A stretch of 48,218 nt of DNA from Natrinema thermotolerans DSM 11552 (GTDB taxonomy: Archaea > Halobacteriota > Halobacteria > Halobacteriales > Natrialbaceae), in assembly GCA_000337115.1 (NCBI GenBank), contig AOIR01000055.1:321-48538 (forward strand), written 5' to 3'. The translations under genes were made by a program, and so were the position numbers. Positions 14,930 through 31,895 of the stretch are shown one piece after another. The stretch's first letter is position 1. Each line of letters opens with the position of its first letter. The notes beneath the pieces were generated by a model, which saw only the letters and a list, made by a program, of their open reading frames with translations, searched no databases and was not told where the DNA came from.

Positions 14930-14991
14930 GCACGATTCCTGTGGGGCCAGAGAGTAAAGGTTATTCGGACGGACCTACTCGTCTCGGGTGC

Positions 14992-15065
14992 GGGCTCGTG
15001 GTCTAGCTGGTCATGACGCGGCCTTTACAAGGCCGAGGTCGGTGGTTCGAACCCGCCCGAGCCCA
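14992..15065 (+). tRNA. tRNA-Val (anticodon TAC)
   Basis: A 74-nt cloverleaf. Acceptor GGGCTCG (14992-14998) pairs with CGAGCCC (15058-15064), discriminator A15065. The anticodon stem CGGCC/GGCCG closes loop TTTACAA with anticodon TAC at 15026-15028. The T-arm contains GGTTCGAACCC-type sequence. No intron is present and CCA is not encoded. Its 3' end is copied again about 121 bp downstream. Confidence 0.96.
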
Positions 15066-15165
15066 CTTCCTGTTGCGAGCAACTTCGCGAGCAGCAGGTA
15101 TGTGGACCGAGGGACGGTTCGAACGAGAGAAGGCGACGCGAACCCAGTGAGCGAGTCTTCGCGTT

Positions 15166-15186
15166 GTTCGAACCCGCCCGGGCCCA
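15166..15186 (+). repeat. Copy of the tRNA-Val 3' end
   Basis: Twenty of 21 bases match the last 21 bases of tRNA-Val (15045-15065); the single change turns GAGCCCA into GGGCCCA. The sequence covers the T-loop and 3' acceptor strand, exactly the part that archaeal tRNA integrases leave duplicated. It lies 121 bp downstream with no gene between. It is probably the far attachment site of a very small or mostly deleted element. Confidence 0.75.
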
Positions 15187-15296
15187 GCCGAGACTTTACC
15201 GTGTTCAAACCCGCCGCTCCGAGCGGTCCGGCAAACGGGGAGAAACGACCTCGAGTCGAGACGTCTGACCGACCAACGCCGGCCGTAGTGCTGGCG

Positions 15297-15743
15297 TTAC
15301 TGTTTGAGTCGGGCGACGTTTTCACGGATCTGACCGAGCAGGCCCTCGCCCGACTCGGTCTGGAGGGCGGCATGCAGCGTCGAGTTCTCCGGTTCGTCCT
15401 TGACGACGATCCGGAGGTACGGCTCGAGTTGGTCGAAGTTGTCCGCGAGGACGACGGTGTGGTTGTCCTCGTCGTGGTCGACGACGCCGGCGTCGTCCAG
15501 TTTCGGGACGTGACACTGGACCGACGACACGTAGACGCTCTTGTACTCGTTTTTCGCGACCTCGTCCGGCGGGACGTCGTGTTCCCAGCCCGCGACCGTT
15601 TCGGCCAGCGTCGAGAGTTCGATCGGGTCCTCCCGACCGCGAAGGGCATAGAGGAGGTAGCGACGCCGGCGGTTCGCTAACAGCTCGAGAATCGTGTCGG
15701 CGTCGAGTTCATGGGCCTCCTGACTCGAGGTAAGGGCTTCCAT
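15297..15743 (-). CDS. Haloarchaeal winged-helix protein (DUF7344-like)
   Basis: The 148-residue protein has a winged-helix N-terminal half: LDADTILELLANRRRRYLLY is the first helix pair, EVAKNEYKSVYVSSVQCHVP the recognition part and LDDAGVVDHDEDNHTVVLAD the wing. This layout is common in haloarchaeal DUF7344/ArsR-like regulators that sense unknown signals. The C-terminus ends LLGQIRENVARLKQ. It sits alone between two tRNA genes; its target is not evident. Confidence 0.8.
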   Translation of the reverse strand: MEALTSSQEAHELDADTILELLANRRRRYLLYALRGREDPIELSTLAETVAGWEHDVPPDEVAKNEYKSVYVSSVQCHVPKLDDAGVVDHDEDNHTVVLADNFDQLEPYLRIVVKDEPENSTLHAALQTESGEGLLGQIRENVARLKQ

Positions 15744-15963: not shown

Positions 15964-16037
15964 GCCGCCTTAGCTCAGACTGGGAGAGCACTCGACTGAA
16001 GATCGAGCTGTCCCCGGTTCAAATCCGGGAGGCGGCA
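15964..16037 (+). tRNA. tRNA-Phe (anticodon GAA)
   Basis: A 74-nt cloverleaf. Acceptor GCCGCCT (15964-15970) pairs with AGGCGGC (16030-16036), discriminator A16037. Anticodon stem CTCGA/TCGAG closes loop CTGAAGA with GAA at 15998-16000. The T-arm CCCCGG-TTCAAAT-CCGGGA is intact, so the gene was restored after integration. It is the left border of the island that follows. Confidence 0.96.
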
Positions 16038-20672: not shown

Positions 20673-21595
20673 TTATGGAAGCTAACATTCTGGGAGAAGA
20701 TGAAAGGGCTGTTGGCGTAGAAATAACCGATAATAATCAGGTAGAACACGCGCTTGCGATTGAACCTGATGGATCCATTCAGGACCACGGTCAGGAGGGG
20801 TATCCGGATAAACCCGCTCAACGGACGACCGAACAAGGAGAACACGTTAGTCAGGCCAGACGGTATGCTCAGTACATAGTGTCTAAAGAGAGAGGATACG
20901 AGACTCTCCCGTGGGATTTGAACGCCGAACGTTTCAAGACGGTACAGCAGGCGCTGCGAGAACTCTCTTCCGAAGAGAGTGAATCGTTCTTCGGAACGTT
21001 GCTCGAACAGAGTCTGAGTCACTACCGTGACCATCCCGAAGTTGATGTCGGTGATCTCACGCGTCCCTACGAGTTGCCAACGGACATGATCGGTTCGGAG
21101 GACACGGTCATGTACGAACAGGAGATTTACTTAGACGAGACGGGACGCATCAGCGCGGTCTCAGATGTGATCGTCTCCTACTACGTGTCGAAAGGCGAGA
21201 CCGACACACTTCGATACGGCAACGACGACACACCTGCGCGTGACCCCGACGCAAAAGTCGAGATTTCACCGGCCCCAATTGTTGCGCCAGAAACGTTCCG
21301 GGATTATCTCGTGTACAATCTCCGGTGTCAGGTCCGTGACTGCTACCTGATGATGGGCGTCGAACCACCGACAGAGTACAAAGTTCTCGGCCACGGCCAG
21401 TATCGATTCACTGGCAAGTACCACCACTTCGAAATGTACCCCGAGTACCACAACATGAACGCGGAAATCGAGGGGTACAGCTACGAGTTCCGTCCGGAAC
21501 TCCCGATTTCGTGGGAAGAAGTCGGAGGGTTAGTCCAACCGAACAGCGGGAAGTCGCTGTACGACCAAATCAAGGGTGCATTGTTCCAGCGGTAA
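20669..21595 (+). CDS. Partner (candidate immunity or chaperone) protein 2
   Basis: The protein is 308 residues from the overlapping ATG at 20669 or 306 from the ATG at 20675. It closely resembles the partner at 22336: GEHVSQARRYAQYIV, YETLPWDLNAERFK, SLSHYRDHPEVDVGDLTRPY, YNLRCQVRDCYLMMG, VLGHGQYRFTGKYHHFEM and the ending SLYDQIKGALFQR. The first 250 bases are clearly AT-richer than the chromosome, a sign of transfer. No signal peptide or membrane helix. Role is inferred only from pairing with the cassette upstream. Confidence 0.8.
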   Translation: MIMEANILGEDERAVGVEITDNNQVEHALAIEPDGSIQDHGQEGYPDKPAQRTTEQGEHVSQARRYAQYIVSKERGYETLPWDLNAERFKTVQQALRELSSEESESFFGTLLEQSLSHYRDHPEVDVGDLTRPYELPTDMIGSEDTVMYEQEIYLDETGRISAVSDVIVSYYVSKGETDTLRYGNDDTPARDPDAKVEISPAPIVAPETFRDYLVYNLRCQVRDCYLMMGVEPPTEYKVLGHGQYRFTGKYHHFEMYPEYHNMNAEIEGYSYEFRPELPISWEEVGGLVQPNSGKSLYDQIKGALFQR

Positions 21596-31456: not shown

Positions 31457-31822
31457 GCCCAATTCAAACGGCGTGAGACGGGTAAAGCCTTCTCCGGGTA
31501 TCGCCAGTCGACGAGCTATCGTTCGGAATCGAACACAGTCACCACGGACCGCAGCAAGCACTCGACGGAACCGTGCCAGTCGGGGACACTCACCTCGCGT
31601 GGTTCCGCCTTCCGGCTTTTCCACTCCTCCCGATGGTCACCGGAGCGGCAAAGCCGCTCCGAGCCGTCGCTCACTTCGTTCGCGACGACGCCGTGAAAAA
31701 GTCCGGGTGCGAGAATCGAACCGTAGCCAGACGGTCGGCCTCGCTTCGCTCGGCCGCTGCGACTGGCAGGGTTCGATCTCGGTCGGATTTGCGCCGCTCA
31801 CGGATTTGTTCGCGGCGACAAA
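31457..31822. other. Gap between histidine kinase gene and tRNA-His
   Basis: This 366-bp gap holds no gene I can support. It contains the copy of the tRNA-His 3' end (31698-31722) and GAGCGAAGCGAG-like short inverted repeats at about 31640-31695 and 31735-31755 (CGCTTCGCTCG). Open frames through it are short and arginine/serine-rich. Confidence 0.45.
31698..31722 (-). repeat. Copy of the tRNA-His 3' end
   Basis: Twenty-five bases are identical to 31820-31844, which are the 3' end of tRNA-His plus three bases beyond it. The match covers the 3' acceptor strand and most of the T-arm. On the tRNA strand the copy is 122 bp downstream, almost the same spacing as the copy behind tRNA-Val (121 bp). 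Confidence 0.85.
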
Positions 31823-31895
31823 GTCCGGGTGCGAGAATCGAACCCGCGTCTCAGCCTCCACAAGGCTGAAGGATAACCACTACCCCAACCCGGAC
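31823..31895 (-). tRNA. tRNA-His (anticodon GTG)
   Basis: Read on the minus strand, TCCGGGT (complement of 31888-31894) pairs with ACCCGGA (complement of 31824-31830). G-1 is encoded at 31895 and faces C73 at 31823, the special pair of tRNA-His. The anticodon stem CAGCC/GGCTG closes loop TTGTGGA with anticodon GTG. A TATA-like CGTATTTTAGT lies on the minus strand near 31925-31935. Confidence 0.96.

Follow-up and report, generated by a model that had tools for sequence, protein, structure and literature searches.

To judge from our comparison, the nearest arrangement known to the one described here is probably that of the Escherichia coli tyrT 3' repeats (rtT RNA), while the nearest haloarchaeal repeats would be the SMRs of Haloquadratum. 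The tyrT repeats are found at one bacterial locus, where 178-bp tandem repeats each carry the last bases of the tRNA, and the RNA of the repeat unit is released from the tRNA transcript. For the haloarchaeal repeats, SMR-A is described as about 110 bp long, too short for a transposase, with its own terminal inverted repeats and without target duplication, and as targeting PATEs and IS605-type elements; the same work calls SMR mobilisation enigmatic (PMC3119063). Two further systems are relevant. Proviruses and plasmids with tyrosine recombinases that integrate at tRNA genes use the tRNA 3' end, leave tRNA-end repeats and restore the tRNA, and as a rule encode an integrase (PMC8371274), and the Haloferax t-elements are tRNA-like structures cut by tRNase Z, the described t-element lying upstream of 5S rRNA (PMC4326828).

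The units described here share something with each of these. Like the SMR-A/B and PATE repeats, they are haloarchaeal and short and have inverted repeats or palindromes; unlike SMR-A, they sit at tRNA 3' ends and carry sequence of the host tRNA (PMC3119063). Like the tRNA-integrating elements they occupy tRNA 3' ends, but they encode nothing. Like the Haloferax t-element (PMC4326828), they are tRNA-like structures outside a tRNA gene, but they lie behind tRNAs and no paired acceptor stem was found in their consensus. The fixed, target-independent terminal inverted repeats of MITEs and SMR-A are not found in the units, whose inverted arm and direct tRNA-end copy are matched to the cognate tRNA. 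PATEs are characterised by near-terminal palindromes related to IS605 ends, and the units have two hairpins. As in the E. coli tyrT repeats, tandem repeats stand behind a tRNA gene and each copies the last bases of that tRNA; unlike the tyrT repeats, the units occur at many tRNAs in nearly every sampled Halobacteria genome and have an inverted T-arm, two covarying hairpins and shared blocks.

We know of no repeat family that adopts its host tRNA's end in direct and inverted copy. We consider the family new because no family compared does so in both orientations and class-wide. Among the entries listed by a literature search that lacked most subscription journals were neither papers on the tyrT/rtT repeats nor an earlier description of tRNA-tail elements. 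As small non-coding repeats, the units have relatives in kind in SMRs, PATEs and tyrT repeats. If our reading is right, many tRNA genes across an archaeal class carry an overlooked structured element with the host gene's sequence in direct and inverted form. This raises the question of how a moving element gains a new tRNA's end, has a bearing on tRNA 3' processing in laboratory haloarchaea and, since integrated elements displace units and one copy apparently served as a site, also bears on how provirus attachment sites are read.

The tRNA-Val unit and its neighbours

The tRNA-Val gene lies in a stretch of 48,218 nucleotides, the whole of which was analysed and is called the window here; it belongs to a Natrinema genome of 3.9 Mb in 68 contigs (G000). 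A first-pass annotation had reported that the 3' end of this tRNA is copied 121 bp downstream in 20 of 21 bases, and this proved correct: the direct repeat 15042-15065/15163-15186 is identical at 22 of 24 positions with a spacing of 121, and at 20 of 21 over the last 21 nt (T and T', Table 1). A 21-mer of the tRNA-Val end, with one ambiguous base and up to 3 mismatches, finds 2 places only in 48 kb, against a mean of 0.01 in shuffled sequence, where two places were found in 0 of 100 shuffles. The same annotation had seen no gene in the 100 nt between the copies, and we agree. Two ORFs of more than 200 aa cross the region, at 14988-15680 (+) and 15011-15649 (-), and since both extend into the tRNA-Val gene they were not taken as genes; no integrase gene lies between the repeats, the 100-nt core being too short for any gene.

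Table 1. Positions of the two units in the window and of the tRNA genes that they follow.
Feature	Position	Strand	Evidence and remarks
tRNA-Val(TAC) gene	14992..15065	+	ARAGORN (14992-15066), Rfam (14992-15065); T (3' end) is 15045-15065, tRNA positions 53-73
Core of tRNA-Val unit, 100 nt, non-coding	15066..15165	+	Match to covariance model R1, 110.6 bits, E 1e-25, with Val units of near relatives among the model sequences; sequence
Hairpin 1, stem CCTGTTGC/GCAGCAGG, apex GAGCAACTTCGCGA	15069..15098	+	RNA and DNA folds; helix covaries in 25 units
Inverted partial T-arm copy GGGACGGTTCGAAC	15111..15124	+	Inverted repeats; complementary to T and T'
Hairpin 2, between inverted and direct T-arm copies	15125..15165	+	Fold; covariation helix 3
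T', direct copy of tRNA-Val 3' end	15166..15186	+	20/21 identical
Possible remnant of a further tRNA-Val 3'-end copy (tentative)	15203..15215	+	GTTCAAACCCGCC, 12/13 nt; sequence only
tRNA-His(GTG) gene, followed by the window's second unit	31823..31895	-	ARAGORN, Rfam
Core of tRNA-His unit, 101 nt, same architecture	31722..31822	-	R1 77.8 bits, E 4.6e-17; itself one of the 25 sequences in the R1 model
T' of tRNA-His unit	31701..31721	-	21/21, exact copy of tRNA-His 3' end

The RNA fold of 15067-15190 reaches -59 kcal/mol against -42.6 for shuffled sequences (z -4.3, 0 of 200 shuffles as good). Since the inverted arm can pair either with T' around hairpin 2, in the RNA fold, or with T around hairpin 1, in the DNA fold of T plus core, we lay the unit out as T, hairpin 1, inverted T-arm copy, hairpin 2 and T', with a linker separating hairpin 1 from the inverted arm. 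The whole is a structured, non-coding unit of about 120 bp, the 3' end of which is formed by T', the copy of tRNA positions 53-73. We propose that the apex of hairpin 1 is a candidate for tandem GA pairs; GA apexes of this kind might conceivably form kink-turns or be bound by L7Ae. Against Rfam 15, the tRNA-Val unit had no match above threshold, and at E up to 10 the sole match was a miRNA far under its cut-off (E 4.5). A decayed extra copy of the tRNA-Val end may, tentatively, start at 15203, and the possible remnant is visible likewise in loci L005 and L006.

The tRNA-His unit folds at -62.1 kcal/mol (z -5.3). The tRNA-Phe gene of the window (15964-16037) has no unit, its best match being 13 of 21, unlike several other Natrinema genomes, in which tRNA-Phe units are present.

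Copies of the tRNA 3' end across tRNA genes

In three Natrinema genomes (G000, G015 and G016), 44 of 117 tRNAs are followed within 250 nt by a copy of their 3' end (at least 17 of 21), namely 15/37, 14/40 and 15/40, respectively. For this count the loci were taken by the tRNA model alone, and Asp, 29 duplicates, one tRNA without a recognised T-loop and one with a short flank were dropped. Of the same 117 tRNAs, none has its 3' end repeated upstream (up to 250 nt), none has its 5' end or its middle part repeated downstream, and three are followed by the reverse complement of the 3' end. With a hand-picked part of G012 included and duplicates between genomes removed, 57 of 140 tRNAs have a copy, with 0 upstream and 4 reverse complements, while non-cognate 3' ends, drawn 20 times per locus, gave 0/140; G012 (14/26) was left out of the main count because only some of it was fetched, from regions chosen by hand. 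In a set of 215 tRNAs, partly chosen for holding units, 8 are followed by a copy of the tRNA middle and 6 by the reverse complement. Chance or a simple repeat is ruled out as the source of the copies, given 2 places found against 0.01 expected, and 44 of 117 tRNAs against 0 upstream.

Since the Asp tRNAs are true tandem genes, Asp was left out of the counts above; in an earlier tally for the window's own genome, 18 of 41 tRNA genes scored with a unit, including two tandem Asp that are false positives. On contig C53 of that genome, near 20700-21300 (L054, L075), the tandem tRNA-Asp genes have an N at their junction, and an assembly artefact is possible. Over 171 units, identity to the tRNA is 0.81 at position 52, 0.94 at 53, 0.93-0.99 through 72, 0.80 at 73 and 0.51 at 74, that is, it drops on both flanks of positions 53-73, the stretch used for selecting units.

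Placement in genomes and taxonomic range

The sequences behind covariance model R1 include units of the window's own genome and genus, so that its matches there are not independent tests. In G000, R1 has 20 matches at E<0.02 (six weaker matches, up to E 1, fall outside this count). Of the 20, 18 stand behind a tRNA and in its orientation, 13 of them beginning no more than 5 nt from it, 2 at a distance of about 50 nt and 3 as second units of arrays. The remaining two are a displaced unit (C31:3985) with a tRNA-Pro end and no tRNA beside it, and an antisense overlap with a unit. At E<=0.001, 43 of the 46 matches in G066 and 32 of the 40 in G057 have a tRNA recognised by Rfam on their strand no more than 700 nt upstream. 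The other 11 comprise two that follow a tRNA missed by the Rfam search (the unit being directly behind it in L312 and about 130 nt on in L313), two antisense overlaps, and seven that form five displaced groups. Thus, in the three genomes listed in full, the matches are 3' of a tRNA on its strand, antisense overlaps, or displaced beside an integrase gene. Among the loci that gave the best matches in other genomes, 27 of 29 contain a copy of the neighbouring tRNA's 3' end that passed the scoring; the exceptions are L120, beside tRNA-Gly and without T' at 17/21, and L134, which is displaced.

At E<=1e-4, R1 matches 58 of 59 sampled Halobacteria genomes and all 31 genera, with 1 to 45 matches each. 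Of 196 genomes sampled from the phylum, 32 match and all of these belong to the window's order, while G040, of the same order, and the other 163 genomes do not match; from a near-to-far ranking, 144 of these 163 are presumed to lie outside the window's order. Both surveys used Infernal's stricter filters, and in the phylum survey 18 candidates were scored for each genome. When 84,980 species were scanned for a pair of exact tRNA-Val ends separated by 85-115 nt, 49 stretches came up, all of them in Halobacteria by their record titles.

Covariation of the hairpins and cognate match of the inverted arm

Alignment of 25 units with MAFFT and RNAalifold gave a consensus of 20 pairs, 11 of them with compensatory change and none forming a paired acceptor stem. 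Compared with 500 column shuffles, the alignment has more paired cells (92.0%, shuffled 77.5 +- 1.1), more cells in which both partners changed (83, shuffled 27.0 +- 4.1) and a higher covariation score (0.433, shuffled 0.172 +- 0.016), whereas the other two of the five measures do not exceed the shuffles (11 vs 9.7 double-change pairs, 24 vs 26.4 further pair types). When the partner is shifted by 1 to 3 columns, pairing falls to 26-43%.

Both the inverted arm and T' fit the cognate tRNA better than other tRNAs. Over 88 units, the inverted arm has a mean score of 19.97 against the cognate and 14.40 against other tRNAs (Wilcoxon p 6e-15, a descriptive value since the units are not independent, with many Val and Phe units and related species among them). 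The cognate excess lies mainly at positions 57-64, with little or none at most acceptor positions, and it is weak in a fixed 6-nt window test (2.85 vs 2.11 matches) and in an ungapped test (10.5 vs 8.67 of 15).

Filled and empty sites among relatives

The first-pass annotation had proposed comparing the tRNA-Val locus across relatives for an empty site. At tRNA-Val itself no clean one was found. In 26 of 29 Natrinema genomes a copy of the tRNA-Val end (at least 16/21) follows the gene or the preceding copy at no more than 260 nt, and by this rule G014, G020 and G028 have none. Base-exact empty sites are found at other tRNAs. The sites at Leu-caa and Leu-gag are filled in G016 and empty in G000 and G015, those at Arg-gcg and Ser-gga are filled in G015 and empty in G000, and that at Phe is filled in G017, with a decayed T', and empty in G016. 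At these tRNAs, then, the features of an integrative element are seen together, namely tRNA-end repeats at both borders, an intact tRNA and an exact empty site. The pairs give no direction, since loss by recombination between T and T' would leave an identical empty site.

Presence of units is patchy between close species, and their hairpins and number vary. At tRNA-Val the hairpins differ between species and some species have two to four tandem units, with up to four in G002 (L015), i.e. tandem tRNA-end copies as at tyrT; in the close relative G016 (L007), hairpin 1 is nearly identical and hairpin 2 is replaced by another hairpin. Locus L130 has three identical tandem Phe units. Units at different tRNAs have identical stretches of hairpin 1 or hairpin 2 in common, the longest of 45 nt, and among 216 units 58 pairs share at least 24 nt; the maximum after shuffling was 13, the mononucleotide shuffles of cores being a mild control. 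The filled and empty sites and the shared blocks may reflect mobility, although they show neither a direction nor a transposition event. In L077 and L037, extra hairpins lie inside or beside hairpin 1 or 2, as if inserted into hairpins.

What the units may be

The reading that we favour, with confidence somewhat better than even, is that the tRNA-Val repeat belongs to a family of mobile, tandem-forming elements, small and non-coding, that sit at tRNA 3' ends and adopt the end of the host tRNA. The observations behind it are the placement 3' of tRNAs, the covarying hairpins, the filled and empty sites, the identical tandems, the modules common to different tRNAs, the cognate match of T' and the inverted arm, the range of 58 of 59 sampled genomes, the displacement of units by integrated elements, and the single site at which a provirus-like left end adjoins T' in place of the tRNA. 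We infer that the units are small non-autonomous mobile or tandem-amplifying elements. Of the two possibilities raised in the first-pass annotation, the very short element in its own right is the one upheld, the 121 bp being one unit of a class-wide family. We propose that insertion would duplicate the tRNA end, through a long target duplication or a recombinase exchange at the T-loop, to give T', and that arrays would expand and contract through recombination between T copies. A simple target duplication does not explain why the inverted arm complements the local tRNA, and the arm might stay complementary through hairpin-directed correction or through selection on structure.

Selection on structure is central to the main rival explanation, which we regard as possible and on the whole unlikely, namely that the units are structured RNAs, transcribed as tRNA 3' trailers, cut by tRNase Z and selected as small RNAs or as parts of 3' processing, their patchiness reflecting frequent loss. 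The tRNA-adjacent units do sit on the tRNA strand, and the hairpins covary in the 25 units, but paired changes can also arise from hairpin-templated correction, which is an established idea. Wobble asymmetry, as a sign of RNA rather than DNA, points in opposite directions in the two hairpins: G-U pairs outnumber A-C mismatches 34 to 15 in the hairpin 1 stems, whereas the bias is reversed in the inner stems of hairpin 2 (11 vs 29). The patchy presence among close species counts against an RNA role. For it, and against quick turnover, speaks the Glu-ttc unit. Across six genomes from three genera this unit is 88-99% identical, and flanks of equal length are diverged, at 44-71%; two of the six flanks themselves resemble units, and hairpin 1 has paired changes. 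Such conservation would fit selection on a structure no less well than mobility, and a recent transfer may also be possible.

More doubtful is the idea that the units are class-wide single-strand cassettes attaching at tRNA 3' ends. Integron cassettes and the CTX phage recombine as folded single strands, and a unit might do likewise as a circular dumbbell of T, hairpin 1, inverted T and hairpin 2, recombining with the duplex tRNA end by exchange at the T-loop, catalysed by Halobacteria-restricted tyrosine recombinases, and adopting the sequence of the tRNA entered; the arrays would then be a gene-less counterpart of integrons that supplies spare sites for proviruses. The order T, inverted T and T' with a hairpin at each turn, the DNA fold that pairs T with the inverted arm around hairpin 1, and the identical tandem units of L130 are consistent with such a cassette, but the inverted arm matches its cognate specifically over a short stretch (about positions 57-64), no recombinase is linked to the units and no circle was seen. 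The SNJ2-, pR1SE- and HSTV2-type integrases are reported to be restricted to Halobacteria, the same class as the units (PMC8371274).

Displaced units and larger elements

The first-pass annotation had also suggested looking for larger elements between the same repeats, and elements bearing an integrase are indeed found between tRNAs and their displaced units. Seven displaced groups were inspected (at tRNA-Pro of G000, L134 of G076, and L307 to L311), and in 7/7 a gene with a match to the Phage_integrase domain adjoins the unit. The domain score is slightly under the Pfam cut-off in G000 and L310, the gene of L310 being broken into two frames; PHROGs likewise classes the gene in G000 as an integrase. 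In 6/7 groups, L307 being the exception, a partial tRNA 3' end directly precedes the unit, which, by sequence, would be as expected at the far end of a tRNA-integrated element. At tRNA-Tyr of G066 (L309) and of G057 (L307), the roughly 18 nt after the tRNA resemble the sequence that follows a T' of the displaced unit or array kilobases away, so that the repeated stretch exceeds the tRNA end.

Directly behind tRNA-Pro of G000 stands a provirus-like left end, whose counterpart in G012 (452 nt, 88%) stands behind T', with the unit still beside the tRNA; the simplest reading suggests that T' acted as the attachment site for a provirus-like element there. This case is one argument for the quite improbable notion that the copies are kept as decoys or landing pads, that is, as spare attachment sites for proviruses and integrative plasmids. 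The tyrosine recombinase genes beside all seven displaced groups would fit as well, but the displaced cases apparently integrated at the tRNA itself, so that the copy gave the tRNA no protection. Moreover, the use of T' was observed a single time, with the right end of the element not found in G012, and the two hairpins are left unexplained. That the tRNA-Val repeat is the scar of an excised provirus or plasmid, the other possibility in the first-pass annotation, draws on tRNA 3' ends being known integration sites (PMC8371274), and is very improbable indeed because the inner 100 nt, far from being random remnants, are a covarying two-hairpin family that recurs at many tRNAs and in arrays.

We found no transposase or recombinase specific to the units. 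Queries of phages, plasmids and IMG/VR (two patterns) gave no match, and since these queries were single sequences and narrow patterns they exclude little. As candidates for a parent element between units, the long tRNA-Val insertions of G028, G024 and G017 were inspected, and the ORFs of G028 and G024 include no integrase by eye.

The provirus-like element at tRNA-Pro of G000 is seen as two ends on different contigs (L305:2873-3904 on C31 and L304 on C52). One end has a tyrosine recombinase, and the opposite end has genes of PHROG 2231 and 1979 with a regulator of PHROG 15150. Near the units, between tRNA-Val and a regulator gene, lies a large repeated surface-type protein gene in G028 (L076:1552-4332, 926 aa), with a matching gene in the same position in G024 (L077:2130-4886, 918 aa); both proteins are presumably DUF3494-like.
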